A stretch of 64,000 nucleotides of DNA from Ensifer adhaerens (GTDB lineage: Bacteria > Pseudomonadota > Alphaproteobacteria > Rhizobiales > Rhizobiaceae). The notes under the pieces are model-generated. The model did not search any database. It was not told the origin of the DNA and was given only the letters and a program-made list of their open reading frames with translations. Both the position numbers and the translations under genes were made by a program. Every line of letters starts with the position of its first letter. The stretch's first letter is position 1. This document shows, piece after piece, positions 4,168-29,671 of the stretch. The DNA lies in the NCBI RefSeq assembly GCF_000697965.2, contig NZ_CP015882.1:1054001-1118000 (forward strand), in the 5' to 3' direction.

Positions 4168-5001
4168 TCACACGCCCAACAGCAACGTCCGCACCAGGGG
4201 ATGCTTGGCGTCGGCAAGGCCGTCGACGACGTTGAAGTGGTGCCGGTCCGGCTCCGCGACAGCAGCCGTCGTTGCACCCAATCCGGTCCAGATATTGGCA
4301 AGAAGCGCGTTCTGACGCAGGAACTCCGCACGCTCTCCGCCTCCGACCCAGCAGGTGATGCGGGCGTCTGGCATCGGCCGCAGCAGTGCCGGGCTCTGTG
4401 AAAGTGCCTCGGCCTCGTCGATCGCGAGCTTCTCGTTCATGGCCGTCGACATGATCGGGCGCAGGTCATGCACGCCGGAGATCGAGACGACGTTGCGGAT
4501 CCGGCCCTGGACATCAGGCGAAAGCGGCGCGGTCGTCGTGATCATTCGGCTGACGAGGTGGCCGCCGGCCGAATGGCCGGTCAGCATCAAGGGACCCTCG
4601 ACGCGTTTCGATGCCTCGCTGATAGCGGCGGCGACCTCTTCGACGATCCCGGCAATGCGAATCTTTGGGCAGAGCGTGTAGGACGGCATCGCGACGGCAT
4701 AGCCGCGCTCCACTGCTCCGGCCGCCAGGTGCGACCAGAAGCTCTTGTCGAGCTGTAGCCAGTACCCACCGTGGACGAAGACCACCAGGCCCTTGGGCGA
4801 ACCGTCGGGAAGAAAGATATCCATGCGGTTCCTCGGCCGATCGCCATAGGCAAGGTCGAGTTTGGCGCGTCCAGCGCTCAAGAGGGCGTTGCGGAACGCC
4901 TCGGCCGGTTTGACCCAGGCTTCCGGCCAGCGATCGCCGCGCGCGATGTTCGAGCCGTTCGCATAGGCGTCGTCCCAGTCGGAAATGCGGTGTTCCAGCA
5001 T
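4168..5001 (-). CDS. Alpha/beta-hydrolase, probable kynurenine formamidase
   Basis: This 277-residue alpha/beta-hydrolase carries the oxyanion-hole motif HGGYW, the nucleophile elbow GHSAGG and a C-terminal catalytic His in PDRHHFNVVDGL. HGGxW plus GHSAGG is the signature of the arylformamidase (AFMID/KynB-equivalent) branch, which hydrolyses N-formylkynurenine to kynurenine and formate. It is unrelated to the metal-dependent cyclase-type KynB of many bacteria. The start at 5001 has GGGAGG 9 nt upstream. It is divergent from the ligase-kynA operon, so it supplies the missing step between KynA and KynU in this window. Substrate assignment rests on motif plus context. Confidence 0.75.
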   Translation of the reverse strand: MLEHRISDWDDAYANGSNIARGDRWPEAWVKPAEAFRNALLSAGRAKLDLAYGDRPRNRMDIFLPDGSPKGLVVFVHGGYWLQLDKSFWSHLAAGAVERGYAVAMPSYTLCPKIRIAGIVEEVAAAISEASKRVEGPLMLTGHSAGGHLVSRMITTTAPLSPDVQGRIRNVVSISGVHDLRPIMSTAMNEKLAIDEAEALSQSPALLRPMPDARITCWVGGGERAEFLRQNALLANIWTGLGATTAAVAEPDRHHFNVVDGLADAKHPLVRTLLLGV

Positions 5002-5329
5002 CGATTTCATCCTCCCTTTGATGTCTCCTCACAGATAGCAATCGCCTGCCCCACCGGGAAAGGCAATGCCGGCAATCGAAAAAACTTTAGGCTTGAAATA
5101 ATTTTGGACTGGTGCGATGCTGCCCCATGTTCAGCCGAGAAGTGGAGGTCTCGCTGTGCCTATCGCCATAACTGGAGTCGCGCCGGCGACGGCCCGTGTC
5201 ACTTTGAATAGTGCCGCGACGCTTGCCGCTTGTCCGCAGACCAGGGCTTTGAACCACCGCAAGACTTTCCGCCGGCTTTGAACAATGCCTGGGCAACAGG
5301 CACGAACGAAATTAGGGAACAGCCGCCAC
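5002..5329. promoter_or_regulatory. Divergent promoter region, formamidase / ligase-kynA
   Basis: This 328-bp intergenic region separates two divergent parts of the tryptophan pathway. Around 5077-5106 there is a local AT-rich stretch, which includes the 18-bp operator-like site described separately. No convincing open frame is present; the ligase gene's upstream in-frame ATG at 5285 lacks a ribosome binding site. Confidence 0.6.
5083..5100. promoter_or_regulatory. Operator-like site shared with the abmA promoter
   Basis: AACTTTAGGCTTGAAATA matches the palindromic site upstream of the monooxygenase/reductase gene (AATTTTAAGCTTGAAATT, 19216-19233) at 15 of 18 positions. Both sites lie in AT-rich patches before genes that act on anthranilate. 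The probable regulator is the MarR protein at 18574-19098. Binding is inferred, not shown. Confidence 0.6.
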
Positions 5330-6949
5330 ATGCTTGGACCGACTTCGCACGTCGATACGTTCACCCGTGACCATCTTCCGCCACAGGAAGAATGGCCGGA
5401 GTTTCTTCTCGAAGGTTTTGACTACCCGGATCACCTCAACGCCGCCGTCGAATTGACGGACGCCATGGTTGCCAAGGGTTTCGGCGATCATACCGCGTTG
5501 ATCGGCAATGGCCGCCGCCGGACTTACAAGGAACTGTCCGACTGGACCAACCGTCTCGCCCACGCGCTGGTTGAGAATTACGGTGTGAAGCCCGGGCACC
5601 GCGTGCTCATCCGCTCCGCCAACAATCCGGCCATGGTCGCCTGCTGGCTGGCAGCCACCAAGGCCGGCGCCGTCGTCGTCAACACCATGCCGATGCTCCG
5701 GGCCGGGGAACTCGCCAAGATCGTCGACAAGGCCGAAGTCAGCCTGGCACTTTGCGACACGCGACTGATGGAAGAAATGATCGTCTGCGCGAAGGACAGC
5801 CGCTTCCTGAAGCAGGTCGTGAGTTTCGACGGGACCGCGAACCACGACGCCGAACTCGACCGCATTGCGCTCGACAAATCAGTGGTCTTCGAGGCGGTGC
5901 ATACCGGTCGCGACGATGTGGCGTTGCTCGGTTTCACCTCTGGCACGACGGGGATTCCGAAGGCGACCATGCACTTTCACCGCGATCTCCTGGCGATCGC
6001 CGACGGCTATGCCCGCGAAGTGCTCGGGGTCACGCCCGACGATATCTTCGTCGGCTCGCCGCCGCTCGCATTCACCTTTGGCCTTGGCGGCCTCGCGATC
6101 TTCCCCTTGCGCTTTGGAGCCGCAGCGACACTGCTCGAGCATGCGACGCCGGCCAACATGGTGGAGATCATCGAGAAGTACAAAGCGACGATCTCGTTTA
6201 CCGCCCCCACCGCCTATCGGGCAATGATGAAGGCGATGGATAACGGCGCCGATCTTTCATCACTGCGCGTCGCGATCTCGGCGGGCGAGACCCTGCCCGG
6301 TCCGGTCTTCGAGGAATGGACGGCCAAGACCGGCAAGCCGATCCTCGACGGGATCGGCGCGACCGAGATGCTGCATATCTTCATTTCCAACCGCTTCGAG
6401 GACCGCAAGCCCGCCTCGACCGGAAAGCCGGTCGGCGGCTACGAAGCGCGGATCGTCAATGACGACATGCAGGAAGTCCCCCGCGGCACGATCGGCAGGC
6501 TTGCGGTGCGTGGCCCGACCGGCTGCCGCTACATGGCCGACAGCCGACAGCGCGACTATGTGCGCGACGGCTGGAACCTGACCGGCGACGCCTTCTATCA
6601 GGACGAGGACGGCTTCTTCCATTTCGCCGCCCGTTCGGACGACATGATCATCACCGCCGGCTACAACATCGCCGGCCCCGAGGTCGAAGCCGCCCTGATT
6701 TCCCACCCGGAGGTCGCAGAATGCGCCGTCGTCGGTGCGCCCGATCAGGAACGCGGCCAGATTGTCGAAGCCTATGTCGTTCTGATATCTGGCGTGTCGG
6801 CAGACGACGCAACGATCAAGCGTCTGCAGGATCATGTGAAGGCGACGATCGCGCCTTACAAATATCCGCGATCGGTAAAGTTCCTGGACAACCTGCCGAA
6901 AACAGCCACGGGCAAGATCCAGCGGTTCCGATTGCGGTCGGAGAACTGA
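5330..6949 (+). CDS. 2-aminobenzoate-CoA ligase (anthraniloyl-CoA synthetase)
   Basis: The 539-residue AMP-forming acyl-CoA synthetase shows the P-loop-like A3 motif [19 protein letters not shown], the A5 region [11 protein letters not shown], the A8 hinge and the C-terminal catalytic Lys in [14 protein letters not shown]. The opening [17 protein letters not shown] is characteristic of 2-aminobenzoate/benzoate-type CoA ligases. The ATG at 5330 has AGGGAA upstream; one at 5285 does not. It probably activates anthranilate to 2-aminobenzoyl-CoA, the substrate of the flavoprotein at 19330. kynA follows after 4 bp, so the enzymes that begin the pathway and use its anthranilate product are co-transcribed. 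Confidence 0.82.
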
Positions 6950-6953: not shown

Positions 6954-7790
6954 ATGAGCAAATCATACGACCCTTCGAAAGAAGGCGCCCAGATGTCGTT
7001 CGAGGGACGCATGTCCTATAGCGACTACCTGATGCTGGAAAAGGTACTGGATGCGCAGGAGCCGCTTTCCAAAGCCCATGACGAGATGCTGTTCATCATC
7101 CAGCATCAGACGTCCGAGCTCTGGATGAAGCTCGCGCTGCACGAGATCAATGCGGCGGTCCGCTCGATCCGCGACGACCGGCTGGAGCCCGCATTCAAGA
7201 TGCTGACGCGCGTCGCCCGCATCTTCGAGCAGCTGAACAGCGCCTGGGATGTGCTGCGAACGATGACCCCCAGCGAATACACCACGTTCCGTGAATCGCT
7301 CGGCCAATCCTCCGGCTTCCAGTCCTGGCAGTACCGGGCGATCGAGTTCCTCGCCGGCAACCGCAATGTCGCGATGCTCGGGCCGCATGCGCACCGCCCC
7401 GACATCATGGAAAAGCTGGAAGCGATCCTGGCAGCGCCGTCGCTCTACGACGAGGCGATCCGGCTTCTTTCGCGCAACGGTTTCGATGTCGGCGCGGAAG
7501 CGGACAAGAGCGATTGGCGCGAGACGCGCACGGCAAGCGAAAAGGTCTTCGCCGCCTGGCAGATCGTCTACCGCGATCCCGAGCGCTATTGGATGCTCTA
7601 CGAGCTCGCCGAGAAACTGGTCGATTTCGAGGACTACTTCCGTCGCTGGCGCTTCAACCACGTCACGACCGTCGAGCGCATCATCGGCATGAAACGCGGA
7701 ACCGGGGGCACATCCGGCGCGTCCTATCTGAAAAAGATGCTCGAAGTGGAACTTTTCCCCGAGCTCTGGCACGTGCGCACGGGTCTCTGA
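6954..7790 (+). CDS. kynA: Tryptophan 2,3-dioxygenase
   Basis: This 278-residue haem dioxygenase opens the indole ring of L-tryptophan to N-formylkynurenine. Hallmarks are [18 protein letters not shown], the substrate-pocket segment [27 protein letters not shown], the proximal haem His in [13 protein letters not shown] and the GTGGTSG loop that closes over the substrate. Length matches bacterial enzymes. It lies 4 bp after the ligase gene and 42 bp before the importer binding-protein gene, so it is the central gene of a ligase-kynA-importer operon. Confidence 0.95.
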
Positions 7791-7832: not shown

Positions 7833-8972
7833 ATGAACCGCATTCTGGCACCAGGCCTTCTTGGCCTTTCACTTGCAACGTCAAGCCTTGCCCATGCCGA
7901 GCCGGTGAAGATCGGCGTCATCACCACGCTGTCGGGCGGCGGCGCCGGCCTCGGCATCGATATGCGCGACGCCTTCACGCTGGCGATCAAGCAGTCGGGC
8001 AACAAGGACGTCGAGCTGGTGATCGAGGACGATGCCCAGAAGCCGGAACTTGCGGTGCAGATCGCCGAGAAGATGATCCAGGGCGACAAGGTCGACCTGA
8101 TGACGGGCATCATCTGGTCGAACCTTGCGATGGCCGTCGTGCCGAACACGGTGGCGCAGGACGTGATCTATCTGTCGCCGAACGCCGGTCCCTCGGCACT
8201 TGCCGGTGCGAACTGCAATGCGAACTATTTCAACGTCGCCTACCAGAACGACAATTTCCATGAGGCGATGGGCCAATACGCCAACAAGGATTACAAGAAC
8301 GCCTTCATCCTCGCCCCCAACTACCCGGCCGGCAAGGACGCGCTGACCGGCTTCAAGCGCTATTACAAGGGCGCGCTTGCCGGCGAGATCTACACGCAGG
8401 TCGGGCAGACGGACTACGCCGCCGAAATCGCCCAGATCCGCGCCTCGGGTGCCGACACCGTCTACTTCTTCCTGCCCGGCGGCATGGGCATCGCCTTCAT
8501 GAAGCAATATGCCCAGTCGGGCGTGAACATCCCCGTCATGGGCCCGGGCTTCTCCTTTAGCCAGGACGTCCTGCCGGCGATCGGCGACGCGGCGCTTGGC
8601 GTCAAGAACTCGGCGACCTGGTCGAAGGACCTCGACAACGAGGCCAACAAGAAGTTCGTCGAAGCCTTCAAGGCCGAGTACAAGCGCCTGCCCTCGATCT
8701 ACGCGGCGCAGAGCTGGGATACCGCAAACCTGATCCTCGCCGCGCTGTCCAAGGCAAGCGTCAAAGACAAGGACGCCTTCCGCGCGGCACTTAAGGCAGC
8801 AGACTTCCAGTCGGTGCGCGGCAAATTCGTCTTCAACAACAACAACCACCCGATCCAGAACATCTACGTCCGCGAGGTGGTGAAGGAAGCCGACGGCGTG
8901 CTCACCAACAAGATTATCGCCACCGCCTTCGAAGACCACAAGGACGCCTACGCCGAGAAGTGCAGCATGTAG
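7833..8972 (+). CDS. Liv-type ABC transporter substrate-binding protein
   Basis: The 379-residue periplasmic protein has a signal peptide (MNRILAPGLLGLSLA, cleavage after AHA) and the type I periplasmic fold of the LivJ/LivK family (VKIGVITTLSGGGAGLGIDM, VIEDDAQKPELAVQIAEKMI). GAGGAG lies upstream of the ATG. It starts the importer portion of the kynA operon and is followed by two permeases and two ATPases. The ligand is not readable from sequence. Position suggests tryptophan, kynurenine, anthranilate or a related aromatic acid rather than branched-chain amino acids. Confidence 0.85.
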   Translation: MNRILAPGLLGLSLATSSLAHAEPVKIGVITTLSGGGAGLGIDMRDAFTLAIKQSGNKDVELVIEDDAQKPELAVQIAEKMIQGDKVDLMTGIIWSNLAMAVVPNTVAQDVIYLSPNAGPSALAGANCNANYFNVAYQNDNFHEAMGQYANKDYKNAFILAPNYPAGKDALTGFKRYYKGALAGEIYTQVGQTDYAAEIAQIRASGADTVYFFLPGGMGIAFMKQYAQSGVNIPVMGPGFSFSQDVLPAIGDAALGVKNSATWSKDLDNEANKKFVEAFKAEYKRLPSIYAAQSWDTANLILAALSKASVKDKDAFRAALKAADFQSVRGKFVFNNNNHPIQNIYVREVVKEADGVLTNKIIATAFEDHKDAYAEKCSM

Positions 8973-9067
8973 TGCCCTGCACCTGTCGTTTGCCCGGGTG
9001 CGCGGCCTTGATGCCGCCATCCGGTCGAAGATCCATGTCCTCCTGACATCAAGCTTGGACCGGTCTC

Positions 9068-9988
9068 TTGTTCACCGCACTTCTGATCGAACAACTGCTC
9101 AACGGGCTCCAGCTCGGTGTGATGCTGTTTCTGATGGCCGCCGGCCTGACCCTGATTTTCGGGGTCATGGGCCTCATCAACCTGGCGCACGGCTCACTGT
9201 ATATGATCGGCGCGTTTGCCTGCGCCACGGTCGCAGCCGCCACCGGCTCCTTCTGGATCGGCCTCATCGCCAGCCTTGCAGCTGCAGCTGGTGTCGGCGC
9301 GATCATCGAGGTTGCCGTCATCCGCAGGCTCTACGACCGCGATCATCTCGATCAGGTCCTTGCGACCTTCGCGCTGATTCTGATCCTGTCGGAAGGCGCC
9401 CGCTGGCTCTTCGGCTCCTTCCCGCTCTATCTCGACATTCCGCCCTTGCTCCAGGGTGCCGTACCGCTGCCGGGCGGCGGCCAGTACCAGCTCTACCGCC
9501 TGGCGATCATCGGCGTCGGCATTGCCGTTGCGATCGGCCTCTATCTGTTGATCTCCAGAACCCGGCTCGGCATGCGCATCCGGGCGGGCGAGTCCGATCG
9601 AGAGATGATCGGAGCGCTCGGTGTCGACATCGGCACGCTCTATACGGTCGTCTTCGCACTCGGTGCAGCGCTTGCCGGGCTTGCCGGCGCGTTGGTGGGC
9701 GCATTGCAATCGGTGCAGGTCGGCATGGGCGAACCGGTCCTCATCCTCGCCTTCGTCGTCATCGTCATTGGCGGTATCGGCTCGATCAAGGGGGCACTGG
9801 TCGGCGCTGTCATCGTCGGTGTCGTCGACACGATGGGCCGTTTCCTGCTCCCATCGCTTCTGGCACTCACCATGCCCGCATCGCAGGCGACCACGATCGG
9901 GGCGGCGCTCGCCTCGATGCTGATCTACGTCGTCATGGCCCTTATCCTCGCCTTCAGGCCGAGTGGCCTGTTTTCGGCACAGTCGTGA
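9068..9988 (+). CDS. Liv-type ABC permease (LivH-like)
   Basis: This 306-residue, highly hydrophobic permease has the LivH pattern LIEQLLNGLQLGVMLFLMAA followed by GLTLIFGVMGLINLAHGSLY and about eight membrane helices. The start appears to be TTG at 9068, because no ATG or GTG is available near the family's usual N-terminus. It lies 95 bp after the binding-protein gene, a wider gap than elsewhere in this operon. It forms a heterodimer with the next gene product. Confidence 0.85.
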   Translation: MFTALLIEQLLNGLQLGVMLFLMAAGLTLIFGVMGLINLAHGSLYMIGAFACATVAAATGSFWIGLIASLAAAAGVGAIIEVAVIRRLYDRDHLDQVLATFALILILSEGARWLFGSFPLYLDIPPLLQGAVPLPGGGQYQLYRLAIIGVGIAVAIGLYLLISRTRLGMRIRAGESDREMIGALGVDIGTLYTVVFALGAALAGLAGALVGALQSVQVGMGEPVLILAFVVIVIGGIGSIKGALVGAVIVGVVDTMGRFLLPSLLALTMPASQATTIGAALASMLIYVVMALILAFRPSGLFSAQS

Positions 9989-9995
9989 GGCCAAG

Positions 9996-10967
9996 ATGAC
10001 CCGCGAAACCACAATCAACCTGCTGCTCGCCCTGCTGCTTCTCGGTGCGCCGATACTGGCTGCAAGCTTGGGCGAACCCTTCTATGTGACGCTCGCAACC
10101 CGCATCGTCGTGCTGGCGCTTGCCGCCGTCGGCCTCAATATGGCGCTCGGGCTTGGTGGGCTGCTCTCTTTCGGGCATGCGGCCTTTTTCGGCCTCGGCG
10201 GTTATGTCGCCGGCATCCTCGCCACGCACGCCTTCAATGCCGAGCCGCTCTTTGCCGGCATTCCGGCGACGACATCCATGCCGCTGATCTGGGTCGTCGC
10301 CGTCGCAGTCGCCGGGCTCATCGCGTTGCCGATCGGTGCGATCAGCCTGCGCACCTCAGGCGTCTATTTCATCATGATCACGCTCGCCTTCGCGCAGATG
10401 ATCTACTACTTCGCGATCTCCTGGCCGGCCTATGGCGGCGAGGACGGCCTGTCGCTGTCGATGCGCAACGCCTTTCCCGGCGTCAACACGGCCAAGCCCC
10501 TGCCCTATTTCCTGATCTGCTACGCGGCACTGATGGCGGCGCTGCTTCTGTTTCGCGTGGTCGAGGGTTCACGCTTCGGCAGCGCCCTGCAGGCGGCGAG
10601 ACAGAACGGTACCCGCCTTGCCGCAGTCGGCATCGCACCTTTCAACATCCGCCTCGTCGCCTTCGCCGTCTCGGCGATGATCACCGGGTTTGCCGGCGCG
10701 CTCTATGCCGACCTCAATCGCTTCGTCGGTCCCTCTATGCTCTCCTGGCACATGTCGGGTGAACTGATCGTGCTGATCATCCTCGGCGGCAAAGGCCGAC
10801 TGTTCGGCCCGGTTGCCGGCGCGATGATCTTCGTCTTCTTCGAATATGTGCTCGGCGGCATCACCGAGCGCTGGCAGTTCTTCCTCGGCCTCATCCTGCT
10901 CGGCATCGTGCTGTTTGCCCGCGGCGGTCTGCTGGGTCTCCTCTCCGGAAAGCCGCGCCATGTCTGA
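9996..10967 (+). CDS. Liv-type ABC permease (LivM-like)
   Basis: The 323-residue permease carries LivM hallmarks: RIVVLALAAVGLNMALGLGG, LLSFGHAAFFGLGGYVAGI and the cytoplasmic coupling loop region GTRLAAVGIAPFNIRL. The ATG at 9996 follows GTGAGG and lies 7 bp after the LivH-like stop. The 3' end overlaps the next ATPase gene by 8 bp, indicating translational coupling. Confidence 0.88.
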   Translation: MTRETTINLLLALLLLGAPILAASLGEPFYVTLATRIVVLALAAVGLNMALGLGGLLSFGHAAFFGLGGYVAGILATHAFNAEPLFAGIPATTSMPLIWVVAVAVAGLIALPIGAISLRTSGVYFIMITLAFAQMIYYFAISWPAYGGEDGLSLSMRNAFPGVNTAKPLPYFLICYAALMAALLLFRVVEGSRFGSALQAARQNGTRLAAVGIAPFNIRLVAFAVSAMITGFAGALYADLNRFVGPSMLSWHMSGELIVLIILGGKGRLFGPVAGAMIFVFFEYVLGGITERWQFFLGLILLGIVLFARGGLLGLLSGKPRHV

Positions 10968-11709
10968 GCCCGTTCTCGAAATCCGCGACCTCAGAAAATC
11001 CTTCGGCGCCCTTAAAGCGACTGATGGCGTCAGCCTCGAGCTTCACCCGGGGCAGATCCATGCGCTGATCGGCCCGAACGGCGCCGGCAAGAGCACGCTG
11101 ATCCACCAGATCGCCGGATCGCTCAGGGCCGACAGCGGCACGATCCGTTTTCTCGGCCAGGATATCGGCGGCCTCGATATGGCCGCCCGCGCAAGGCTCG
11201 GCCTTGCCCGTAGCTTCCAGATCTCCTCGCTGGCGCAGGAATTCTCGGCTCTTCGCAACGTCATGCTGGCGGTGCAGGCGCGCCACGGCAGCAGCTTCCA
11301 CTTCTTTCGCCAGGTCAGCAACGACAAGGAACTGACCGAACCGGCGATGGCGATGCTGGAGCGCGTCGATCTTGCTGCGCGTGCCCACGTGCCGGCGGCC
11401 GAACTCTCGCACGGCGAACGCCGGCAACTCGAAATCGCCATCGCGCTGGCGCTGTCGCCGAAAGTCTTTCTGTTCGACGAGCCCATGGCCGGCATGGGAC
11501 CGGAGGGCTCCAAGCGGCTGACTTCGTTCCTTGATGGGCTGCGTCACGAAGCGCCAATGCTCTTGGTGGAGCACGACATGGATGCGGTCTTTGCGCTGGC
11601 GGATCGCATCTCCGTGCTGGTCTACGGCCGCATCATCGCGTCAGGCACAGTCGATGAAATCCGCAGCGATCCGGATGTGCGCCGGGCCTATCTGGGAGAA
11701 GCCGCGTGA
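10960..11709 (+). CDS. Liv-type ABC ATPase (LivG-like)
   Basis: This 249-residue ATPase has Walker A GPNGAGKST, a signature region LSHGERRQLEIAIAL and Walker B VFLFDEPMAGMGP. The Q-loop context LGLARSFQISSLAQEFSAL is typical of LivG. It overlaps the LivM-like gene by 8 bp and the LivF-like gene by 4 bp. It powers the importer encoded from 7833 to 12392. Confidence 0.88.
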   Translation: MSEPVLEIRDLRKSFGALKATDGVSLELHPGQIHALIGPNGAGKSTLIHQIAGSLRADSGTIRFLGQDIGGLDMAARARLGLARSFQISSLAQEFSALRNVMLAVQARHGSSFHFFRQVSNDKELTEPAMAMLERVDLAARAHVPAAELSHGERRQLEIAIALALSPKVFLFDEPMAGMGPEGSKRLTSFLDGLRHEAPMLLVEHDMDAVFALADRISVLVYGRIIASGTVDEIRSDPDVRRAYLGEAA

Positions 11710-12392
11710 GCCTGCTCGAACTCAAAGGTCTCGAAACCTTCTACGGCGCATCCCAAGCGCTCTTCGGCGTCACCCTAGATGTGCGCGAGGGCGAGGTCGT
11801 CGCGCTCATGGGCCGCAACGGCATGGGCAAGACGACGACGATCAACTCGATCCTCGGGCTCGTGCGCCCGCGTTCAGGCGCCATCTCCTTTGCCGGCAAG
11901 ACCATCTCCGGCCTGCGCCCGCACCGGATTGCAAGGCTCGGCCTCGGTCTCGTTCCTGAAGGACGGCGCTGCTTTCCCAATCTCACCGTCATGGAGAACC
12001 TCGTCGCCACGGCTCGCGGAAACGAATGGACCTTCGAGAAAGTGACCGCGCTCTTCCCTCGCCTCGGCGAGCGGCGCGATCAGTATGCCAACACGCTTTC
12101 GGGCGGGGAGCAGCAGATGCTTGCGATCGGCCGGGCCTTGATGACCAATCCCAGCCTGCTCATTCTCGACGAGGCAACGGAAGGGCTGGCGCCGGTCATT
12201 CGCCAGGATATCTGGTCGGCGATCCGCACTCTGAAGGCGGCAGGGCAGTCGATCCTCGTCGTCGACAAGACGCTTTCGGAACTCCTGCCCGTTGCCGACC
12301 GCTGCTTCGTCTTGGAAAAGGGCGCGACCGTGTTCGAGGGAGCGCCGCTTGCGCTGACGCCAGAACTCCAGGATCGCTATCTCGGCGTTTGA
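11706..12392 (+). CDS. Liv-type ABC ATPase (LivF-like)
   Basis: The 228-residue ATPase shows Walker A GRNGMGKTT, signature LSGGEQQMLAIGRAL and Walker B LLILDEATEGLAPVI, the last being typical of LivF. It starts with GTG inside the LivG stop codon (GTGA overlap). It is the last gene of the operon and ends 8 bp before the 3' end of the convergent threonine-dehydratase-like gene, leaving no room for a separate terminator. Confidence 0.88.
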   Translation: MSLLELKGLETFYGASQALFGVTLDVREGEVVALMGRNGMGKTTTINSILGLVRPRSGAISFAGKTISGLRPHRIARLGLGLVPEGRRCFPNLTVMENLVATARGNEWTFEKVTALFPRLGERRDQYANTLSGGEQQMLAIGRALMTNPSLLILDEATEGLAPVIRQDIWSAIRTLKAAGQSILVVDKTLSELLPVADRCFVLEKGATVFEGAPLALTPELQDRYLGV

Positions 12393-12400: not shown

Positions 12401-13369
12401 TCAGGCCGAGGGAATGCCACCGCCGAGCACTGTGGAATAGGCAGCCGCGTCGATGTTTCCGCCCGAGACCACGCAGACGATGTTTCCCTTGAGATCCGGC
12501 CGCGCGATTGCGGCGGCAAGCGAGGCAGCACCCGCGCCTTCGGCAACGATCTTCGCCTTCTTGAAGAGAATCCGCATCGCTTCGGTCACCTGCCCCGGGC
12601 TGACCGCAATCGCCCCATCGATCAGGTCACCGACCACCGGCCAGATCTGAGGCACCAGCGACGGCGCGCCGATGCTCTTGATAAAGGAGGGGCGGGTTTC
12701 GATCGTCACGATTTGGCCAGCGACCAGGGCCGCCGAAACAGGGGCGGCGCTGTCATCTTCAACCGCAAAGACACGGCAGCGGTCGGAAGCGGCCTTGATA
12801 GCGCTGGCCACCCCGGTGGTCATGCTGCCACCGCCATACGGGGTAAGCACGACGTCGACATCGGGCAGATCCTCGATGATCTCCACACCGATGGAGCCGT
12901 TCCCGGCCAGCACCGCCTGATCGGTCACCGGATTGATCAGCAGTTCCAGCGCATCCGGATGATCGGCGCCAGTGATGTAGTCCCACCAGGTCTCGGCACT
13001 GACGAACCGTACTTCTCCGCCGAGCGCACGCACACCGTCGATCTTGGTCTGGGGTGCGCCGCGATACATGTAGGCAACCATCGGCACACCGATGAGGCGT
13101 GCCGCCCAGGCCATGCCATAGGCCATATTGCCGGAACTGGTGACTGCGACGCCGCTTTCGAGTTCGGCCGGATCGCGCGACAACACAGCGTTCAAGGCGG
13201 GACGGAGCTTGAACGCGCCAATTGGCGACAGCGTCTCCAGTTTCAGGAATATCTGACGGTCCGGAAACCCAAGATCGAGCCTGACGAGCGGTGTGCGCGC
13301 GAAATGCGGCGCGATGCGTTTACGGGCATCGGCGATTTCCTCCGGGGTCGGGCGGTGTGGCGCGATCAT
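12401..13369 (-). CDS. PLP-dependent threonine/serine dehydratase-like enzyme
   Basis: This 322-residue fold-type II PLP enzyme has the Schiff-base Lys in SPIGAFKLRPA (K54), the substrate-carboxylate loop TSSGNMAYGMA and the PLP-phosphate Gly loop PYGGGSMTTG. It resembles the catalytic domain of biodegradative threonine dehydratase and serine racemase, and has no regulatory ACT domain. It lies 141 bp downstream of kynU in the trpXYZ-type/kynU gene set, which hints at a role in amino-acid catabolism, such as disposal of alanine-, serine- or threonine-like products. The exact substrate is unknown. Confidence 0.75.
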   Translation of the reverse strand: MIAPHRPTPEEIADARKRIAPHFARTPLVRLDLGFPDRQIFLKLETLSPIGAFKLRPALNAVLSRDPAELESGVAVTSSGNMAYGMAWAARLIGVPMVAYMYRGAPQTKIDGVRALGGEVRFVSAETWWDYITGADHPDALELLINPVTDQAVLAGNGSIGVEIIEDLPDVDVVLTPYGGGSMTTGVASAIKAASDRCRVFAVEDDSAAPVSAALVAGQIVTIETRPSFIKSIGAPSLVPQIWPVVGDLIDGAIAVSPGQVTEAMRILFKKAKIVAEGAGAASLAAAIARPDLKGNIVCVVSGGNIDAAAYSTVLGGGIPSA

Positions 13370-18573: not shown

Positions 18574-19098
18574 ATGATGGGTGAAGACAAGTTCGACACC
18601 TCGCCGGAATGGGTCGATGGCGAGACCAAGGCGCTCGAGGCTCCGGGCGATCACCGTGCAGAGCTCAGGCTATGGCTGCGTCTCTTGACCTGTTCGACAC
18701 TTGTCGAAAGCGAAATCCGTCGGCGGTTGCGGGAAGAATTCGATTCGACCTTGCCGCGTTTCGACCTGATGGCCCAGCTCGAGCGTGCGCCTGACGGCAT
18801 GGTGCTTGGCGAAGTCTCCAAGCGCATGATGGTCTCCCCCGGCAACATCACGGTGCTGGTGGAACGGCTGACCGAGAGCGGCCACATCAGCCGCACGACG
18901 CTTCCGACCGACCGGCGTGTCCAGATCATCGCGCTTACCCCCTTCGGCCGCGCCGAATTCGAGAAGATGGCAGCAAGCCATGCCGACTGGATCTCGGATC
19001 TGTTTGCCGGCCTTCCGGCCAAGGAAGGCGGCGTGCTGATGGATGAGCTTGCCACACTCAAGCGGTCGATCATCGCCTCGCTCGCGCGAAATTCCTGA
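18574..19098 (+). CDS. MarR family regulator of the CoA-dependent anthranilate genes
   Basis: This 174-residue MarR protein has flanking dimerization helices and a central winged helix. The recognition region is LGEVSKRMMVSPGNITVLVE, followed by the wing RTTLPTDRRVQIIALT. It lies directly upstream of the 2-aminobenzoyl-CoA operon in the same orientation. MarR proteins often respond to aromatic CoA thioesters or acids, so 2-aminobenzoyl-CoA is a plausible ligand. The 18-bp palindrome at 19216 and its relative at 5083 are candidate binding sites. The start could also be the ATG 3 bp later. Confidence 0.85.
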   Translation: MMGEDKFDTSPEWVDGETKALEAPGDHRAELRLWLRLLTCSTLVESEIRRRLREEFDSTLPRFDLMAQLERAPDGMVLGEVSKRMMVSPGNITVLVERLTESGHISRTTLPTDRRVQIIALTPFGRAEFEKMAASHADWISDLFAGLPAKEGGVLMDELATLKRSIIASLARNS

Positions 19099-19215: not shown

Positions 19216-19233
19216 AATTTTAAGCTTGAAATT
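19216..19233. promoter_or_regulatory. 18-bp near-perfect palindrome before abmA-like gene
   Basis: AATTTTAAGCTTGAAATT reads as a palindrome centred on AAGCTT, with one mismatched pair. It sits in an AT-rich patch about 97 bp before the monooxygenase/reductase start and is the expected size for a MarR operator. A relative lies before the CoA ligase gene at 5083-5100. Confidence 0.65.
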
Positions 19234-19329: not shown

Positions 19330-21647
<2,318 letters not shown>

Positions 21648-21651
<4 letters not shown>

Positions 21652-22421
21652 CAAGGCACGCCCTCGTCACAGGCGCCGGCAGCGGTATCGGCAAGGCGAT
21701 TGCCCTTAGGCTCGCCGCCGACGGCCACATCGTCAGCCTCGCCGGTCGGCGCGCAGCACCGCTTGAAGCGGTACGGGGCGACATCCTTGCTGCCGGCGGA
21801 CAGGCCTTTGTCCGTGACGGCTTCGATGTGACCAACCCGCAGGCCGTCGAGCAAGGTATCACGGCTGCGATCGCTGAAGCCGGAGAGATTGCCGTTCTCG
21901 TCAACTGCGCCGGCGAAGCGCCCTCGGCGCCGTTCGAAAAGACCGACTTCGCGCTTTGGCAGCGGGTGCTTTCCATCAACCTCACCGGCGTCTATCTGGT
22001 GACGCAGGCAGCGCTTGCCTCCGTGCGGCGGGCCGGCAACGGCCGGATCGTCAACGTTGCGAGCACCGCGGGCCTGACCGGCTATGCTTATGTTTCGGCC
22101 TATTGCGCGTCGAAGCACGGCGTCATCGGCTTGACGAGGGCACTGGCGCTTGAGCTTGCGCGCACCGACGTCACCGTCAATGCCGTCTGCCCCGGCTTCA
22201 CCGACACGCCGCTGATCGACGGCGCGCTCGATACGATCAGCGAAAAGACCGGCCGTTCGCGCGAGGAAGCGCGCGCCAGCCTTGCTCGCTCCAACCCGCA
22301 GGGACGCCTGGTGACGCCGGAAGAAGTCGCCCACACGGTCTCGTGGCTCGTCTCGGAAAAGGCGACGGCAATCACTGGTCAGGCGATCGCTGTCGCCGGC
22401 GGCGAAGTTCTTGGAGGATAG
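21648..22421 (+). CDS. SDR family oxidoreductase
   Basis: The 257-residue short-chain dehydrogenase has the cofactor motif TGAGSGIGK near the N-terminus, the NCAG segment and the catalytic YCASK (Y152, K156). The arginine-rich loop after the second strand ([10 protein letters not shown]) is compatible with NAD(P)H. It overlaps the monooxygenase/reductase gene by 4 bp (ATGA). It probably oxidizes or reduces an alicyclic hydroxy- or oxo-acyl-CoA formed after ring reduction. The step is inferred from operon position. Confidence 0.85.
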
Positions 22422-22423
22422 AG

Positions 22424-23266
22424 ATGACAAACCCGATGCAGGCCAAGAAGCGCGCCTTCAAAGACCACAAGGCCAAGCACTTCCTGTTCGAAACGGATGC
22501 TGACGGACGCGTCGCCACGATCACCCTCAACCGTCCGGAAAAGAAGAACCCGCTGACCTTCGAAAGCTACGAGGAACTTTGCGATCTTTTCCGCTCGCTT
22601 GCCCGCGCCAGCGACGTGCGCGCGGTCGTGCTGGCCGGCGCCGGTGACAACTTTTCATCCGGTGGCGACGTGTTCGAGATCATCGAGCCGCTGACGCGTA
22701 TGGCGATGCCCGATCTGCTGGATTTTACCCGCATGACCGGCGAACTGGTCCGCCAGATCCGCGCCTGCCCGCAGCCGGTCATAGCAGCCGTCGACGGCAT
22801 CTGCGCCGGCGCCGGTGCCATTTTGGCCATGGCCTCGGACTTCCGTGTGGCAACGCTCGAGGCGAAGACGGCCTTTCTCTTTACCCGCGTCGGGCTGGCC
22901 GGCGCCGACATGGGCGCCTGCGGCATTCTTCCCCGCATCATCGGCCAGGGCCGCGCCGCCGACCTGCTCTTCACCGGCCGCGTCATGACCGCGTCGGAAG
23001 GCCACGCCTGGGGCTTCTACAATGCTCTGCATGAGCGTCCGTCGCTGCTTGCCGAAGCCCAGAAATTTGCACGCAGTATCGCCGACGGCCCCTGGTTTGC
23101 CCATGCGATGACCAAGAAGATGCTCGACCAGGAATGGGCGATGGGTATCGACCAACTGATCGAATCGGAAGCCCAGGCGCAAGCGATCTGCATGGCGACC
23201 GGCGACTTCCGCCGCGCCTTCGAGGCCTTTGCCGCCAAGGCGAAGCCTGAATTCAAGGGGAACTGA
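22424..23266 (+). CDS. Enoyl-CoA hydratase/isomerase family protein
   Basis: The 280-residue crotonase-fold protein shows [20 protein letters not shown], the first oxyanion loop [15 protein letters not shown] and the second [23 protein letters not shown] precedes the ATG at 22424, only 2 bp after the SDR stop. Crotonase members can hydrate enoyl-CoAs or cleave cyclic oxoacyl-CoAs. In this operon either hydration or ring opening of the alicyclic CoA intermediate is possible, so a specific reaction is not assigned. Confidence 0.85.
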
Positions 23267-25679: not shown

Positions 25680-26108
25680 ATGTTCAGGACCACGAGACCA
25701 CTGCGGTTCGGAGACTGCGACCCCTCGGGGATCGCCTACTTCCCGTCCTATCTCAATATTCTTGTCGGGGTGACGGAGGACTTCTTCGCCTCGCTCGGCT
25801 TTCCCTGGAAAGCCATGAACGACGAGCGGCGGATCGGCGTGCCGACGGTGCGCCTCGATCTCACCTTCTCTCGACCGGGCTTCCAGGGCGACGATCTGGA
25901 TTTCGCGCTGGCGGTGCGCGGCATTGGCCGCTCGTCGCTCGACATGGAGCACACGGTCTCGGCGAGAAGCACCGTGCTCTGGACAGCAAAACAGCGGGTC
26001 GTTGCCACCTCGCTCGACAATCACGCTTCTTGTGCCTGGCCGGACGATATCCGCGCCGCGCTGACACAACATCTGGAGACGACCGATGCACACCATCCTG
26101 CAACCTGA
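25680..26108 (+). CDS. Hotdog-fold acyl-CoA thioesterase (4HBT family)
   Basis: The 142-residue protein has the 4-hydroxybenzoyl-CoA thioesterase signature RFGDCDPSGIAYFPSYLNI, including the catalytic Asp, and a short hotdog domain. In aromatic-CoA operons such enzymes release CoA from dead-end thioesters. Here it might hydrolyse excess 2-aminobenzoyl-CoA or a stalled intermediate. It overlaps the RidA gene by 23 bp. Confidence 0.83.
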   Translation: MFRTTRPLRFGDCDPSGIAYFPSYLNILVGVTEDFFASLGFPWKAMNDERRIGVPTVRLDLTFSRPGFQGDDLDFALAVRGIGRSSLDMEHTVSARSTVLWTAKQRVVATSLDNHASCAWPDDIRAALTQHLETTDAHHPAT

Positions 26109-26481
26109 AGGCTGGGCTAAGCCCATCGGCTATGCCAACGGCGTCTCGGCCAAAGGCCGCACCGTCTTCATCGGCGGCCAAATCGGCTGGAACGCGCAGT
26201 CCGAGTTCGAGACCGACGATTTCGTCGAGCAGGTGCGCCAGACGCTGAAGAACGTGGTCGCAGTGCTTGCGGCCGGCGGCGCCGAGCCGCAGCACATCAC
26301 CACCATGACCTGGTACTTCACTGACAAGCAGGAATATGTCGGCAATCTGCGCGGCATCGGTCAGGCCTATCGCGACATCATCGGCCGGCATTTCCCGGCC
26401 ATGGCTGCGATGCAGGTCGTCTCGCTCGTCGAAGACCGCGCCAAGATCGAGATCCAGGCAACGGCCGTCGTCCCCGATTGA
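26086..26481 (+). CDS. RidA/YjgF family protein
   Basis: The 131-residue protein has the RidA fold pattern (FIGGQIGWNAQ, QTLKNVVAVLAAGGAEPQHI, RDIIGRHFPAMAAMQVVSL). RidA proteins hydrolyse reactive enamines/imines to ketones and ammonia. The reductive step on 2-aminobenzoyl-CoA yields a ring carrying an enamine nitrogen, so a dedicated RidA-type deaminase inside this operon would make chemical sense. GGAGA precedes the ATG, and the gene overlaps the thioesterase gene. The catalytic role here is inferred. Confidence 0.85.
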   Translation: MHTILQPEGWAKPIGYANGVSAKGRTVFIGGQIGWNAQSEFETDDFVEQVRQTLKNVVAVLAAGGAEPQHITTMTWYFTDKQEYVGNLRGIGQAYRDIIGRHFPAMAAMQVVSLVEDRAKIEIQATAVVPD

Positions 26482-26492
26482 GGTTTGGCAGC

Positions 26493-28463
26493 ATGGCCGA
26501 GATCCGATTTTCCGAAAGCGTTTCCGCCCGACTTGAAGGTGGCGTTCTCCTCGTTACCATCGACAACGCGCCCGTCAACGCGCTCTCCGCGGATGTCCGT
26601 TCCGGCCTGATGGCGGCGCTTGACCATGTTGCCGAACGGTCGACGATTGCGGGTCTCGTCATCACCGGCGCCGGCAATACCTTCATCGGCGGCGCGGATA
26701 TCAGGGAGTTTGGCAAGCCGCCGGTCGACCCGCTGCTTCCCGAAGTGATCGAGCGCATCGAGACCTTCGACAAGCCGGTTGCCGCAGCCGTCAACGGCCC
26801 CGCCCTTGGCGGCGGCTGCGAAGTGGCGCTTGCCTGCCACGGCCGGATTGCCGGCGAGAAGGTGTCGTTCGGCCTGCCCGAGGTAAAGCTCGGGCTTGTC
26901 CCGGGTGCTGGCGGGACGCAGCGCTTGCCACGCCTGATCGGCACGGTCATGGCGATCGATCTCATCGGAACCGGTCGTGCCGTGAAGGCCGCCGAAGCTG
27001 TGGCGCTTGGGCTTGCCGACAGCATTGCCGCCGATCCTGTCGCTGTCGCTCTGGCTTTCGTTCAAGAGCAAGCTGGCAAGCCGCTCCGTCGGACCGGCAT
27101 GATCGCCGTCCCGCCTGCGCACGCCAAAGCCGTCGGCGCGGTGGAAGCGAAGGTTCTGGCAAAGGCCCGCGGCCAGGCTGCCCCCGCCGAGGCAATCCGC
27201 CTCGTTAAGGCAGCCGGTGAACTCGACCTGAAGCAAGGACTGGCTGAGGAACGCGCGACTTTCCGGCGTCTGCGGGATTCGGTCGAGTCAGCGGCCCTCA
27301 GGCATGTGTTTTTTGCGGAGCGCGCCGCCGGCAAGGTCGAAGGGCTCGACAAGGTTTCGCCTCGGCCGATCGCGATCGTCGGTGTCGTCGGCACCGGGCT
27401 GATGGGGTCCGGCATCGCGGTCTCCGCCTTGATCTCCGGCTACCGCGTGGTCGCCTTGGAGCAGACGGAAGAAGCCGCAGCCGGCGGACGGGCACGCATT
27501 GCCGAGACGCTCGACAAGACCGTGCGGGCTGGACGATTGACTGCTGACGGACGCGACGAATGCCTCGCGCGGCTGCAGACCACCGCAGAAGCCGTTGAGC
27601 TCGCGAAAGCTGACCTCGTCATCGAAGCGGTGTTCGACGACCTCCAGGTCAAGACGGAGTTGTTTCAGAAGCTCGACGGCATCGTCGCACCGGGCGCCAT
27701 CCTCGCGACCAACACCAGTTATCTCGACCCCGATACGATCGCGGCGGCGACGGTCGATCCATCACGGGTGGTGGGCCTGCATTTCTTTTCGCCCGCCAAC
27801 GTGATGCGGCTCGTCGAAGTCGTTGATTGCGCCAAGACCGCGCCGGACGTCCTGGCGACGGCGCTTGCCTTCGTCAAACGCCTCGGCAAGCTGCCGGTCG
27901 TAACCGGGGTCACCGAAGGCTTCATCGGCAACCGCATTTTCTCGGCCTATCGCCGCGAGGCGGAGTTCATGCTGGAAGATGGAGCACTGCCGCAGGAGAT
28001 CGACGCCGCGCTCGAGGCCTATGGCTTTCCGATGGGCATCTTCGCCGTCAACGACATGGCCGGACTGGAGATTGCCTGGGCACGACGCAAGCGACAGGCG
28101 GCAACACGCGATCCTGCCGCACGCTATGTCGAAATCGCCGACAGGCTCTGCGAGGCCGGCCGTCTCGGCCGCAAGAGTGGCCGCGGCTGGTACGCCTATC
28201 CCGATGGTGAGCGCACCGTTGATCCCGACGTCACGGCGGTGATCGAAACGGCGCGGGCAGCCAAGCGCATCACGCCGCGCGCCTTTAAATCCGATGAGAT
28301 CATGAACCGGCTTCTGAACGCCATGTGCGACGAAGGCAAGGCGCTGCTCGCCGAAGGCATCGCCGCGCGTCCCGGCGACATCGATCTCGTGATGATCAAC
28401 GGCTACGGATTTCCCGCGCACAAGGGAGGGCCGATGTTTGCAGCCGGGCAAAGCAAAGGATAA
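26493..28463 (+). CDS. Bifunctional enoyl-CoA hydratase / 3-hydroxyacyl-CoA dehydrogenase
   Basis: The 656-residue fusion has an N-terminal crotonase domain (ITGAGNTFIGGADIREFGKP, GPALGGGCEVALACHGRI; about residues 1-190). A 3-hydroxyacyl-CoA dehydrogenase part begins near residue 290 (GVVGTGLMGSGIAV) with the catalytic-His region VVGLHFFSPANVMRLVEVV. The layout matches FadB-like and peroxisomal multifunctional enzymes. ATG 26493 has GAGG upstream. It performs hydration and NAD-dependent oxidation before the thiolase, whose gene starts 5 bp later. Confidence 0.88.
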   Translation: MAEIRFSESVSARLEGGVLLVTIDNAPVNALSADVRSGLMAALDHVAERSTIAGLVITGAGNTFIGGADIREFGKPPVDPLLPEVIERIETFDKPVAAAVNGPALGGGCEVALACHGRIAGEKVSFGLPEVKLGLVPGAGGTQRLPRLIGTVMAIDLIGTGRAVKAAEAVALGLADSIAADPVAVALAFVQEQAGKPLRRTGMIAVPPAHAKAVGAVEAKVLAKARGQAAPAEAIRLVKAAGELDLKQGLAEERATFRRLRDSVESAALRHVFFAERAAGKVEGLDKVSPRPIAIVGVVGTGLMGSGIAVSALISGYRVVALEQTEEAAAGGRARIAETLDKTVRAGRLTADGRDECLARLQTTAEAVELAKADLVIEAVFDDLQVKTELFQKLDGIVAPGAILATNTSYLDPDTIAAATVDPSRVVGLHFFSPANVMRLVEVVDCAKTAPDVLATALAFVKRLGKLPVVTGVTEGFIGNRIFSAYRREAEFMLEDGALPQEIDAALEAYGFPMGIFAVNDMAGLEIAWARRKRQAATRDPAARYVEIADRLCEAGRLGRKSGRGWYAYPDGERTVDPDVTAVIETARAAKRITPRAFKSDEIMNRLLNAMCDEGKALLAEGIAARPGDIDLVMINGYGFPAHKGGPMFAAGQSKG

Positions 28464-28468
28464 ATCTC

Positions 28469-29671
28469 ATGGCTGAAGCCTACATCGTCGGCGGCGTGCG
28501 CACCCCCATCGGCCGCTACGGCGGGGCACTCTCGAGCGCCCGCCCGGACGATCTTGCGGCCCATGTGATCCGCGAGGCGCTGGCGCGTGTTTCGTCCATT
28601 CTGGCCGAAGCGATCGACGAGGTCGTACTTGGCTGCGCCAACCAGGCGGGTGAGGACAATCGCAACGTCGCCCGCATGGCCGCCTTGCTCGCCGGGCTAC
28701 CGGAGACGGTCGCCGGAACGACGATCAACCGGCTGTGCGGTTCCGGGCTCGATGCAGTCGGTTATGCCGCTCGCGCGATCCGGCTGGGAGAGGCCGAAAT
28801 CGTGGTCGCCGGCGGCGTCGAAAGCATGTCGCGTGCGCCCTTCGTCATGCCGAAGGCCGAAAGCCCGTTCCAGCGCAGCACCGAGATCCACGACACGACG
28901 ATCGGCTGGCGCTTCATCAACACGGCCATGAAAGACCGATACGGCATCGACTCGATGCCGGAGACCGCCGAAAACGTCGCCGCCGAATTTTCCATCTCCC
29001 GCAAAGATCAGGACGCCTTTGCACTGCGCAGCCAGGCGCGCGCGGCAGTTGCGCAAAAGAGCGGGCGTCTCGCCCGCGAGATCGCCGCCTACGCGATCAA
29101 GGGACGCAAGGGCGAGACGACCCACGTCGAACACGACGAACATCCGCGCGAGACGACGCTCGAAAAGCTTGCGAGCCTGCCGACGCCGTTCCGCGCCAAT
29201 GGCACGGTAACCGCGGGCAACGCATCGGGCGTCAACGACGGCGCGGCCGCGCTCATTCTCGCCTCAGCCGGCGCGGTCGAGCGCTACGGACTTCAGCCCT
29301 TGGCCCGCGTCGACGGCATGGCAACGGCCGGTGTTGCCCCACGCATCATGGGCATCGGACCGGTCTTTTCCACGCACAAGCTCCTGGAACGTTTTGGTCT
29401 CGGCATCGGCGACATCGATGTCGTCGAGTTGAACGAGGCCTTTGCAGCGCAGGCGCTCGCCTGCATGCGGCAACTGGGGCTTGCCGACGATGCGCCCCGT
29501 GTCAATCCGAACGGCGGCGCCATCGCGCTCGGCCATCCGCTCGGCATGTCCGGTGCACGCCTGGCGTTGACCGCCGCGTTGGAGCTCGAAGCGCAGGGTG
29601 CCAAGCGTGCGATCGCCACCATGTGCATCGGCGTCGGACAGGGCATCTCGATGCTGTTGACACGGCCGTAG
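28469..29671 (+). CDS. Thiolase (acetyl-CoA C-acyltransferase)
   Basis: The 400-residue thiolase has the nucleophilic Cys in INRLCGSGLDAV (C90), NEAFAAQAL, the His loop GGAIALGHPLGMSGAR and the C-terminal proton-shuttle Cys in CIGVGQG. It resembles 3-oxoadipyl-CoA/acetyl-CoA acyltransferases. It is the last gene of the operon and releases acetyl-CoA plus a shortened acyl-CoA, probably completing beta-oxidation of the opened ring. AAGGA lies before the start. Confidence 0.9.
   Translation: MAEAYIVGGVRTPIGRYGGALSSARPDDLAAHVIREALARVSSILAEAIDEVVLGCANQAGEDNRNVARMAALLAGLPETVAGTTINRLCGSGLDAVGYAARAIRLGEAEIVVAGGVESMSRAPFVMPKAESPFQRSTEIHDTTIGWRFINTAMKDRYGIDSMPETAENVAAEFSISRKDQDAFALRSQARAAVAQKSGRLAREIAAYAIKGRKGETTHVEHDEHPRETTLEKLASLPTPFRANGTVTAGNASGVNDGAAALILASAGAVERYGLQPLARVDGMATAGVAPRIMGIGPVFSTHKLLERFGLGIGDIDVVELNEAFAAQALACMRQLGLADDAPRVNPNGGAIALGHPLGMSGARLALTAALELEAQGAKRAIATMCIGVGQGISMLLTRP

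Follow-up and report, generated by a model that had tools for sequence, protein, structure and literature searches.

Gene content and organization of the island

The stretch of DNA analysed here (64,000 nucleotides, G000:C3:1054001-1118000, hereafter the window) belongs to a three-contig, 7.27-Mb genome of Ensifer adhaerens, a relative of nodule-forming bacteria that lives in soil. Its positions 4168-29671 hold an island of genes predicted to degrade tryptophan by way of kynurenine and the CoA thioester of anthranilate, in which kynurenine-pathway genes (kyn) are joined to genes of the aerobic 2-aminobenzoate type (abm). All genes were identified by Pfam and NCBIfam family scans and by searches against solved structures in the Protein Data Bank (PDB), and are listed in Table 1. 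On the plus strand the candidate anthranilate-CoA ligase gene is followed after only 4 bp by kynA, a gap from which co-transcription of the two is predicted, and then by a branched-chain-type ATP-binding cassette (ABC) importer; the formamidase candidate points away from the ligase gene on the opposite strand. A minus-strand block comprises a TrpX-like solute-binding protein (SBP), an ATPase, a permease, kynU and a PALP-family enzyme. The plus-strand block beyond it consists of GntR and MarR regulators, a flavin monooxygenase/old-yellow-enzyme fusion (the fusion) and eight tightly packed genes ending with a thiolase. Over its full length the fusion protein matches its counterpart on the 1,459,375-base plasmid unnamedB of Ensifer adhaerens Casida A-T305 with 100% identity, and a megaplasmid of this species is the very probable location of the island. 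The annotation of Ensifer sp. PDNC004 shows the genes in identical order, and the island is therefore more than a chance neighbourhood.

An initial annotation of this DNA had placed kynA, kynU, the ligase, the fusion, two importers and two regulators here. The scans bear this out: kynA, kynU and the fusion exceed their family cut-offs, the ligase has 4wv3 as its best solved relative, and two ABC importers, a GntR and a MarR protein are present. The thioesterase, the Rid protein and the PALP-family enzyme extend that list. What had been described as a full set of beta-oxidation enzymes is nearly one, with a short-chain dehydrogenase/reductase (SDR), a crotonase, two acyl-CoA dehydrogenases (ACAD), a fused enoyl-CoA hydratase/3-hydroxyacyl-CoA dehydrogenase (ECH-HAD) and the thiolase.

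Table 1. Features of the island, with positions counted from the first nucleotide of the window
Feature	Position	Strand	Evidence or remark
Alpha/beta-hydrolase, kynurenine formamidase (AFMID-type) candidate	4168..5010	-	PDB relatives; HGGYW and GHSAGG motifs
Operator copy 1, TTTAGGCTTGAAAT	5086..5099	+	Formamidase/ligase-kynA divergent intergenic region
2-Aminobenzoate (anthranilate)-CoA ligase candidate	5330..6949 (reading frame open from 5285)	+	TIGR02262; 4wv3; start taken from PDNC004 orthologue length
kynA, tryptophan 2,3-dioxygenase	6954..7790	+	TIGR03036 427 bits (cut-off 391)
Branched-chain-amino-acid-type ABC importer	7833..12392	+	Pfam; PDNC004 orthologues
Importer SBP	7833-8972	+	
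Importer permeases	9068-9988, 9963-10967	+	First permease initially cut at 8998-9999, without Pfam match; 9068-9988 is the frame of the annotated orthologue
Importer ATPases	~10960-11709, 11706-12392	+	
PALP-family enzyme, serine/threonine-dehydratase-like	12401..13369	-	PF00291 202 bits
kynU, kynureninase	13511..14773	-	TIGR01814 357 bits (cut-off 246); 1qz9 478 bits
kynU-side ABC importer	14774..17538	-	Permease 14774-15697, ATPase 15703-16482, TrpX-like SBP 16549-17538
GntR/FCD regulator	17700..18473	+	Pfam; divergent from importer-kynU operon (predicted)
MarR-family regulator	18568..19098	+	Pfam
Operator copy 2, TTTAAGCTTGAAAT	19219..19232	+	Upstream of fusion gene
2-Aminobenzoyl-CoA monooxygenase/reductase candidate (FAD monooxygenase + old-yellow-enzyme fusion)	19330..21651	+	PRK08255; PF00724 + PF01494
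SDR oxidoreductase	21648..22421	+	Pfam
Crotonase	22424..23266	+	PRK08258 467 bits
Two acyl-CoA dehydrogenases	23269-24465, 24472-25668	+	Pfam
4HBT thioesterase	25680..26108	+	PF13279
Rid-family protein	26086..26481	+	PF01042
ECH-HAD fusion	26478..28463	+	Pfam
3-Oxoadipyl-CoA-type (pcaF-type) thiolase	28469..29671	+	TIGR02430 648 bits (cut-off 597)

Kynurenine genes

Tryptophan 2,3-dioxygenase (TDO) and kynureninase, two enzymes of the kynurenine pathway to anthranilate, are both present with family-model scores above cut-off. kynA, which PF03301 matches in two pieces, is the sole gene of this family that we found in the genome, and the solved relative of KynU is the kynureninase of P. fluorescens. 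The bacterial kynurenine pathway is encoded by kynA, kynB and kynU. The island has the same KynA and KynU, but an alpha/beta-hydrolase formamidase candidate stands in place of KynB, and anthranilate is predicted to leave as a CoA thioester. The hydrolase scores 272 bits against the uncharacterised structure 2pbl and a weak 63 bits against Drosophila kynurenine formamidase 4e11. A KynB-type formamidase elsewhere in the genome was considered and rejected, as neither of two PF04199 (cyclase-family) proteins matches any NCBIfam model at E 1e-30.

The best NCBIfam match of the PALP-family enzyme reaches 192 bits, under the cut-off of that model. This gene travels with the island while its position shifts: it lies after kynU in Ensifer and between GntR and MarR in Aminobacter (L143:14583-15551; L numbers are our handles for loci).

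Candidate CoA ligase, monooxygenase/reductase fusion and their likely substrate

The ligase candidate scores 382 bits on TIGR02262 (cut-off 375) and 305 bits against the anthranilate-CoA ligase 4wv3, compared with 262 bits against the benzoate-CoA ligase 2v7b. The fusion scores 1356 bits on PRK08255 (cut-off 1078). Relatives of both are encoded on plasmid pAL1 of Arthrobacter Rue61a, with 49% identity for the fusion and 54% for an AMP-binding protein corresponding to the ligase. In the part of PMC3534580 cited here, the cloned Rue61a plasmid ligase gene is reported to have anthranilate-CoA ligase activity, and anthranilate-grown cells to hold anthraniloyl-CoA together with C7H8O4-CoA, which according to the authors might be cyclohexanedione-carboxyl-CoA. 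We equate that gene, ARUE_113p00220, with the pAL1 AMP-binding protein by its position adjoining the fusion; the tags differ between records.

The NCBI name of PRK08255, 'bifunctional salicylyl-CoA 5-hydroxylase/oxidoreductase', raises the alternative that the downstream block serves salicylate and that the kyn genes are chance neighbours, and relatives of 61% identity in C. taiwanensis and Caballeronia SBC1 indeed adjoin a gentisate-dioxygenase-like cupin gene and a gene of the fumarylacetoacetate hydrolase (FAH) family. To this we compared 96 fusion loci, made up of the best 80 of 586 relatives and 16 plasmid loci chosen by hand. A Rid gene instead lies in the fetched flank of 92 of them, while only two (L085 and L147) have the gentisate-type cupin and FAH-family pair without Rid; L019 and L078 have neither Rid nor such a cupin in the fetched flank. 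In a larger set of 120 fusion rows, 104 are Rid-type, two gentisate-type and 14 neither; 12 of the last group are hand-cut kyn/fusion regions in which Rid may fall beyond the ends. L085 and L147 form one clade apart from the branch of the window (SH-aLRT 100, quick tree), and the Pfam scan finds no cupin, and thereby no gentisate dioxygenase next to the hydroxylase, in the island. The fusion and ligase-kynA moreover share an operator, and linkage to kyn genes recurs, as detailed below. On gene context and tree the salicylyl-CoA enzyme suggested by the NCBI name was rejected; a salicylyl-CoA role is unlikely for the fusion, and a salicylate block with kyn genes beside it by chance is very improbable.

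The fusion loci of Azospirillum thermophilum (L151) and Caballeronia SBC1 (L147) lie near indolepyruvate ferredoxin oxidoreductase genes, the former also near ring-hydroxylating dioxygenase genes, hinting at other aromatic-acid sources for the pathway.

A shared operator in front of the two halves

The intergenic regions before ligase-kynA and before the fusion gene have a near-palindrome, TTTADGCTTGAAAT, in common, which we derived by aligning the intergenic regions of the window and seven relatives. Between formamidase and ligase it is exact in all eight aligned sequences. Six of the eight (window, L106 and L138-L141) also have it unaltered ahead of the fusion gene, L142 differs there at one position, and L143 lacks an exact copy; L138 and L143 have long inserts here and were omitted from the alignment of this region. 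Among 14 Ensifer, Shinella and Aminobacter loci (L003-L016), the operator directly precedes the fusion gene as an exact copy in nine, and no such copy occurs in five. Across the entire genome the exact operator occurs only twice, before ligase-kynA and before the fusion gene. As it was derived from these two sites their presence is no test, while the lack of other exact sites is. Allowing one mismatch adds three further places, compared with one place for the reversed pattern at up to one mismatch, and within the window three matches (two of them overlapping) are found at up to two mismatches against 0.24 expected.

We then searched 96 loci outside the derivation (2.06 Mb). Twenty exact matches were found in 17 loci, none of them inside a mapped gene, as compared to 0 matches in each of eight first-order Markov simulations. 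Eleven lie before the fusion gene, five before the ligase gene (four of these between formamidase and ligase), two before MarR and one each before the SDR gene and kynA. The fusion gene served as the anchor for retrieving these loci, among which L022 and L083 stem from one plasmid and L144 is closely related to the deriving set. Mesorhizobium and Ruegeria also have the operator ahead of kyn or abm genes, and these are the most telling matches. The shared operator suggests that the two halves of the island are run as one unit. Judged by its position, the MarR protein, which has a match at 40% identity or more in 41 of 77 loci, is probably the reader of the operator. The region between the importer-kynU genes and GntR carries AT-rich repeats, unlike the operator, in the eight aligned sequences, and we therefore read two regulatory circuits.

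Recurrence in other genomes

To our count of co-occurrence we admitted fusion matches at E <= 1e-150 and TDO matches above cut-off, with two weaker matches dropped. In the class (385 genomes) the fusion is found in 71, TDO in 68 and both in 48 genomes (Fisher p 1e-27); in the family (151 genomes) the numbers are 89, 76 and 72 (p 2e-21). The two genes lie within 30 kb of each other in 7 genomes of the class and 41 of the family, with our own genome counted in both. The p-values are overstated and the linkage counts understated, since the genomes cannot be treated as independent samples and many assemblies are in fragments. The frequency of both genes in the family suggests that the route is common in Alphaproteobacteria.

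Gene orders were compared in 20 regions picked for linkage and in five named loci. The window shares an Ensifer/Shinella order with L106, L171 and L172. In the Mesorhizobium order (L020 and L063) a ligase-kynU-kynA run is convergent to the abm genes, and L084 represents a Ruegeria-type order. L161 and L170 show an apparent single run in one direction, fusion-SDR-MarR-ECH-ACAD-ligase-kynU-kynA-SBP, and in L168 and L169 TDO and kynU precede the abm genes with Rid inverted. On an 82-row fusion tree (thinned from the 120 rows) the presence of kyn genes changes at least ten times, a rough minimum given the quick tree without mixture model, flagged long branches, the flank length and the choice of L153-L172 for kyn linkage. 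The packaging of kyn with abm genes, which the initial annotation had singled out as striking, is thus real and conserved in PDNC004, but it is recurrent in Alphaproteobacteria in several gene orders and not specific to this strain.

The abm locus of L062, titled Bacillus subtilis SK6B4, groups on the tree with Pseudochrobactrum (L152), and that assembly looks contaminated or mislabelled.

The Rid protein and the lower pathway

In RidA an arginine binds the substrate carboxylate. The island Rid has Met106 in place of this catalytic arginine and retains the partner glutamate. The replacement is general: among 102 cluster-linked Rids with data, 101 have Met and one Ile at this position, leaving aside three truncated rows and a distant Rid that has Asn (31% identity), while two control Rids have Arg and Trp, respectively. 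A Met-type Rid is also linked to the fusion in Rue61a (Actinobacteria), in a Deinococcus and in a haloarchaeon, one example each. Loss of the arginine fits an enamine-thioester substrate, as a CoA thioester has no free carboxylate, provided that the arginine has the role given above. We propose the Met-type Rid as a candidate enamine/imine hydrolase acting on a CoA thioester. Cyclohexanedione-carboxyl-CoA, which the C7H8O4-CoA of Rue61a might be, is the expected deaminated product. The cited part of PMC4433059 (2015) describes an arginine as required for imine hydrolysis by RidA proteins, and Rid4-Rid7, which lack it, as having no known function. Like Rid4-Rid7, the island Rid retains the glutamate and lacks the arginine; it differs from them in that its clade has Met at this position and is tied to one pathway.

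In ten loci an FAH-like gene was found while ECH, ACAD1 and HAD were not, with Rid, SDR and thioesterase retained, as if Rid acted before the lower pathways part. These FAH-like abm loci come from Rhizobium, Devosia and others (L026, L040, L051, L057, L060, L064, L066, L068, L071 and L075). An annotated FAH-like example, L150:12001-18862, has fusion, SDR, thioesterase and Rid plus a small cupin. The plasmid of Natronosalvus halobius (L180) carries an abm-like cluster with a Met-type Rid, a fusion-like FAD monooxygenase, acyl-CoA dehydrogenases, a thiolase and F420-related genes.

Alternatively, the Rid protein could be a generic housekeeping or damage-control passenger and the fusion product could deaminate spontaneously. 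That product is reported to be unstable below pH 5 in the cited part of PMC3534580, and Arg-less Rids had no known imine hydrolase activity according to the part of PMC4433059 drawn on here. A passenger would hardly be expected in 92 of 96 loci, including the ten FAH-like loci, nor to have Met for Arg almost invariably and in three examples from other phyla. We regard a passenger Rid as possible, though less likely than not.

All 95 of 95 crotonase sequences (PRK08258-type; island crotonase aligned to the PaaG-type 4fzw) have Ile or Cys and Arg at what we take to be the catalytic glutamate positions of hydratases, and each of them has an invariant Asp. The ECH-HAD fusion, in contrast, retains both hydratase glutamates in GGGCE and PEV motifs, presumably the usual ones of hydratases. 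With the glutamate pair kept in one and lost in the other, the hydratase step probably falls to the ECH-HAD fusion, and the lone crotonase is a candidate ring opener, proposed to act as a hydrolase or isomerase. The SDR has a match at 50% identity or more in 71 of 77 loci.

Taken together, the Met-type Rid might be the missing deaminase of the 2-aminobenzoyl-CoA pathway, within a one-operator regulon that extends from Rhizobiales to Roseobacteraceae and in which the Glu-less crotonase and an FAH-type protein are interchangeable ring openers. This combined proposal is tentative, and we place it somewhat below even odds. If true, it would give the Arg-less Rid clade a metabolic function.

Importers and a second kynurenine outlet

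The replicon carries a second cassette some 50 kb upstream of the island, in L098. It consists of GntR, SBP, ATPase, permease and kynureninase, with identities to the island copies of 61%, 77%, 81%, 77% and 73%, respectively. It is followed by genes for an aldehyde dehydrogenase, a DHDPS-family protein, a 3-hydroxyanthranilate 3,4-dioxygenase (HaaO) and an aspartate-dehydrogenase-like protein. Because this paralogous importer-kynU cassette adjoins a 3-hydroxyanthranilate dioxygenase, the island is not the sole outlet for kynurenine, and the initial description of a self-contained module does not hold. The cassette and HaaO module occupy positions 6631-16784 of L098 (G000:C3:994000-1012000), where no decarboxylase was identified among the scanned genes; a similar HaaO/DHDPS-family set is found on plasmids of Ruegeria THAF33 and Agrobacterium pusense. 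None of the proteins at the seven best-scoring of 28 FAD_binding_3 places is named kynurenine 3-monooxygenase, for which the library may lack a model. A difference in substrate specificity between the two kynureninases was considered and dropped, since the alignment gave no ground for it.

The TrpX-like SBP beside kynU scores 181 bits on NF041285, well below the cut-off of 390, and the system should therefore not be called a tryptophan importer. Since importer and kynU are duplicated together beside HaaO, their genes suggest an importer of kynurenine or a relative. The same duplication, with no second TDO in the genome, could mean that the island mainly imports and degrades external kynurenine and anthranilate from rhizosphere or microbial exudates, with kynA as an accessory entry. 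Both SBPs are far below the TrpX cut-off, and at many loci the fetched flanks show ligase and abm genes but no kyn gene; because such Rid-type loci occur, other anthranilate sources also feed them. Against this, kynA lies 4 bp from the ligase gene, and formamidase and ligase-kynA share an operator-bearing intergenic region. We consider an island devoted mainly to external substrates possible, but less probable than the tryptophan module proposed below.

The island had also been expected to avoid catechol-type dioxygenation of anthranilate. Among the four Rieske alpha subunits of the genome no anthranilate 1,2-dioxygenase model (AntA/AndAc large subunit) reaches its cut-off, the best subunit having scores of 453 for TIGR03228, with a cut-off of 672, and of 738 for benA, whose cut-off is 781. 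The expectation needs qualifying: another part of the genome carries a benzoate-type dioxygenase gene right beside one of PF00775 (intradiol, catechol-type dioxygenase).

Proposed route and relation to known systems

The best explanation of these data is a tryptophan catabolic module in which kyn and abm halves are joined, to which we assign a probability of roughly 0.85. The joined route from tryptophan by way of kynurenine and anthranilate to anthraniloyl-CoA, as initially claimed, is well supported by gene content, linkage and the shared operator. From the gene content, conservation, operator and residue losses observed in the sequence we infer the operon structure, reactions, regulator-operator pairing and transport substrates as follows. 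The module would consist of three main transcription units and divergent partners. KynA would open tryptophan, the alpha/beta-hydrolase would deformylate the product and KynU would cleave kynurenine to alanine and anthranilate; kynurenine may additionally enter through the importer beside kynU. The ligase would convert anthranilate to anthraniloyl-CoA, which the fusion would hydroxylate and partly reduce to 2-amino-5-oxocyclohex-1-ene-1-carbonyl-CoA, the known Azoarcus reaction. The Arg-less Rid may then hydrolyse this enamine to the 2-oxo compound with release of ammonia, the SDR may reduce the 5-oxo group and the Glu-less crotonase may open the ring hydrolytically, after which the dehydrogenases, the ECH-HAD fusion and the thiolase would complete beta-oxidation. 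The shared operator, probably read by MarR, would couple the ligase-kynA operon to the abm operon, and GntR would control the importer-kynU operon. The initial description of a pathway complete to acetyl-CoA is a prediction for every step after the fusion.

Several observations weigh against this interpretation. The fusion is absent from 20 of the 68 TDO genomes of the class and TDO from 23 of its 71 fusion genomes, and 70 of the 120 fusion rows (unthinned) are Rid-type with no kyn gene inside the short flanks that were fetched. The PRK08255 model mixes substrates by name. Of the 20 regions excised for kyn and fusion genes, 12 give no Rid match, at least in part because they stop short, and in the cited part of PMC4433059 Arg-less Rid subfamilies were judged unlikely imine hydrolases and the S. 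enterica Rid7 was inactive. The exact operator is absent from 79 of the 96 independent loci and is not found before the fusion gene in L011, L013-L016 and L143. In Rue61a the plasmid copy is dispensable, as cells without the plasmid still grow on anthranilate via chromosomal paralogues (PMC3534580, in the part cited). We found no growth, enzyme or expression data for the strain or its close relatives.

The two component pathways are both already known. The abm cluster of Azoarcus evansii reportedly contains beta-oxidation-type genes and also encodes a MarR regulator, an ABC-type binding protein and a Rid protein under the name 'translation inhibitor'. The island likewise has beta-oxidation genes, a MarR regulator and a Rid protein in its cluster. 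Compared by description rather than sequence, both systems have a CoA ligase and a monooxygenase/reductase flavoenzyme, candidates in the case of the island, as summarised for the aerobic 2-aminobenzoate pathway of Azoarcus evansii (Schuhle et al. 2001) in the part of PMC4539516 cited here. The island differs in its linkage to kynA, a formamidase candidate and kynU with a shared operator, and no relative titled Azoarcus is among the best 80 of 586 fusion relatives. Rue61a pAL1 resembles the island in ligase, fusion, Met-type Rid and a thioesterase-like gene, but has FAH and small-cupin genes and PaaX-like regulators; in its stretch no SDR, crotonase, ACAD, HAD or thiolase is annotated, and there are no kyn genes. 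The megaplasmid locus of Ruegeria pomeroyi DSS-3 (L084) shares TDO, alpha/beta-hydrolase, fusion, SDR, MarR, ECH, ACAD, ligase, Rid and operator with the island. It is, however, a single divergent locus with an extra small cupin, and neither kynU nor thiolase is annotated in that stretch.

Our literature search found no paper on a joined kyn-abm cluster. One clause in the cited part of PMC9007349 already names tryptophan degradation via anthraniloyl-CoA monooxygenase, as poorly known, and the part of PMC8879955 cited here lists abm and kyn genes together for Cupriavidus metallidurans, which did not grow on anthranilate. As far as this search goes, the two-copy operator, the measured recurrence and the deamination and ring-opening candidates appear to be new. 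The comparison supplies a parts list for the lower steps, with candidates for ammonia release and ring opening, and one predicted regulon.

Immediately after the island, on the opposite strand (window 29785-36296), lie a sugar-type ABC importer and two xylose-isomerase-like TIM-barrel genes. This block is unrelated to the island and is carried by PDNC004 too.

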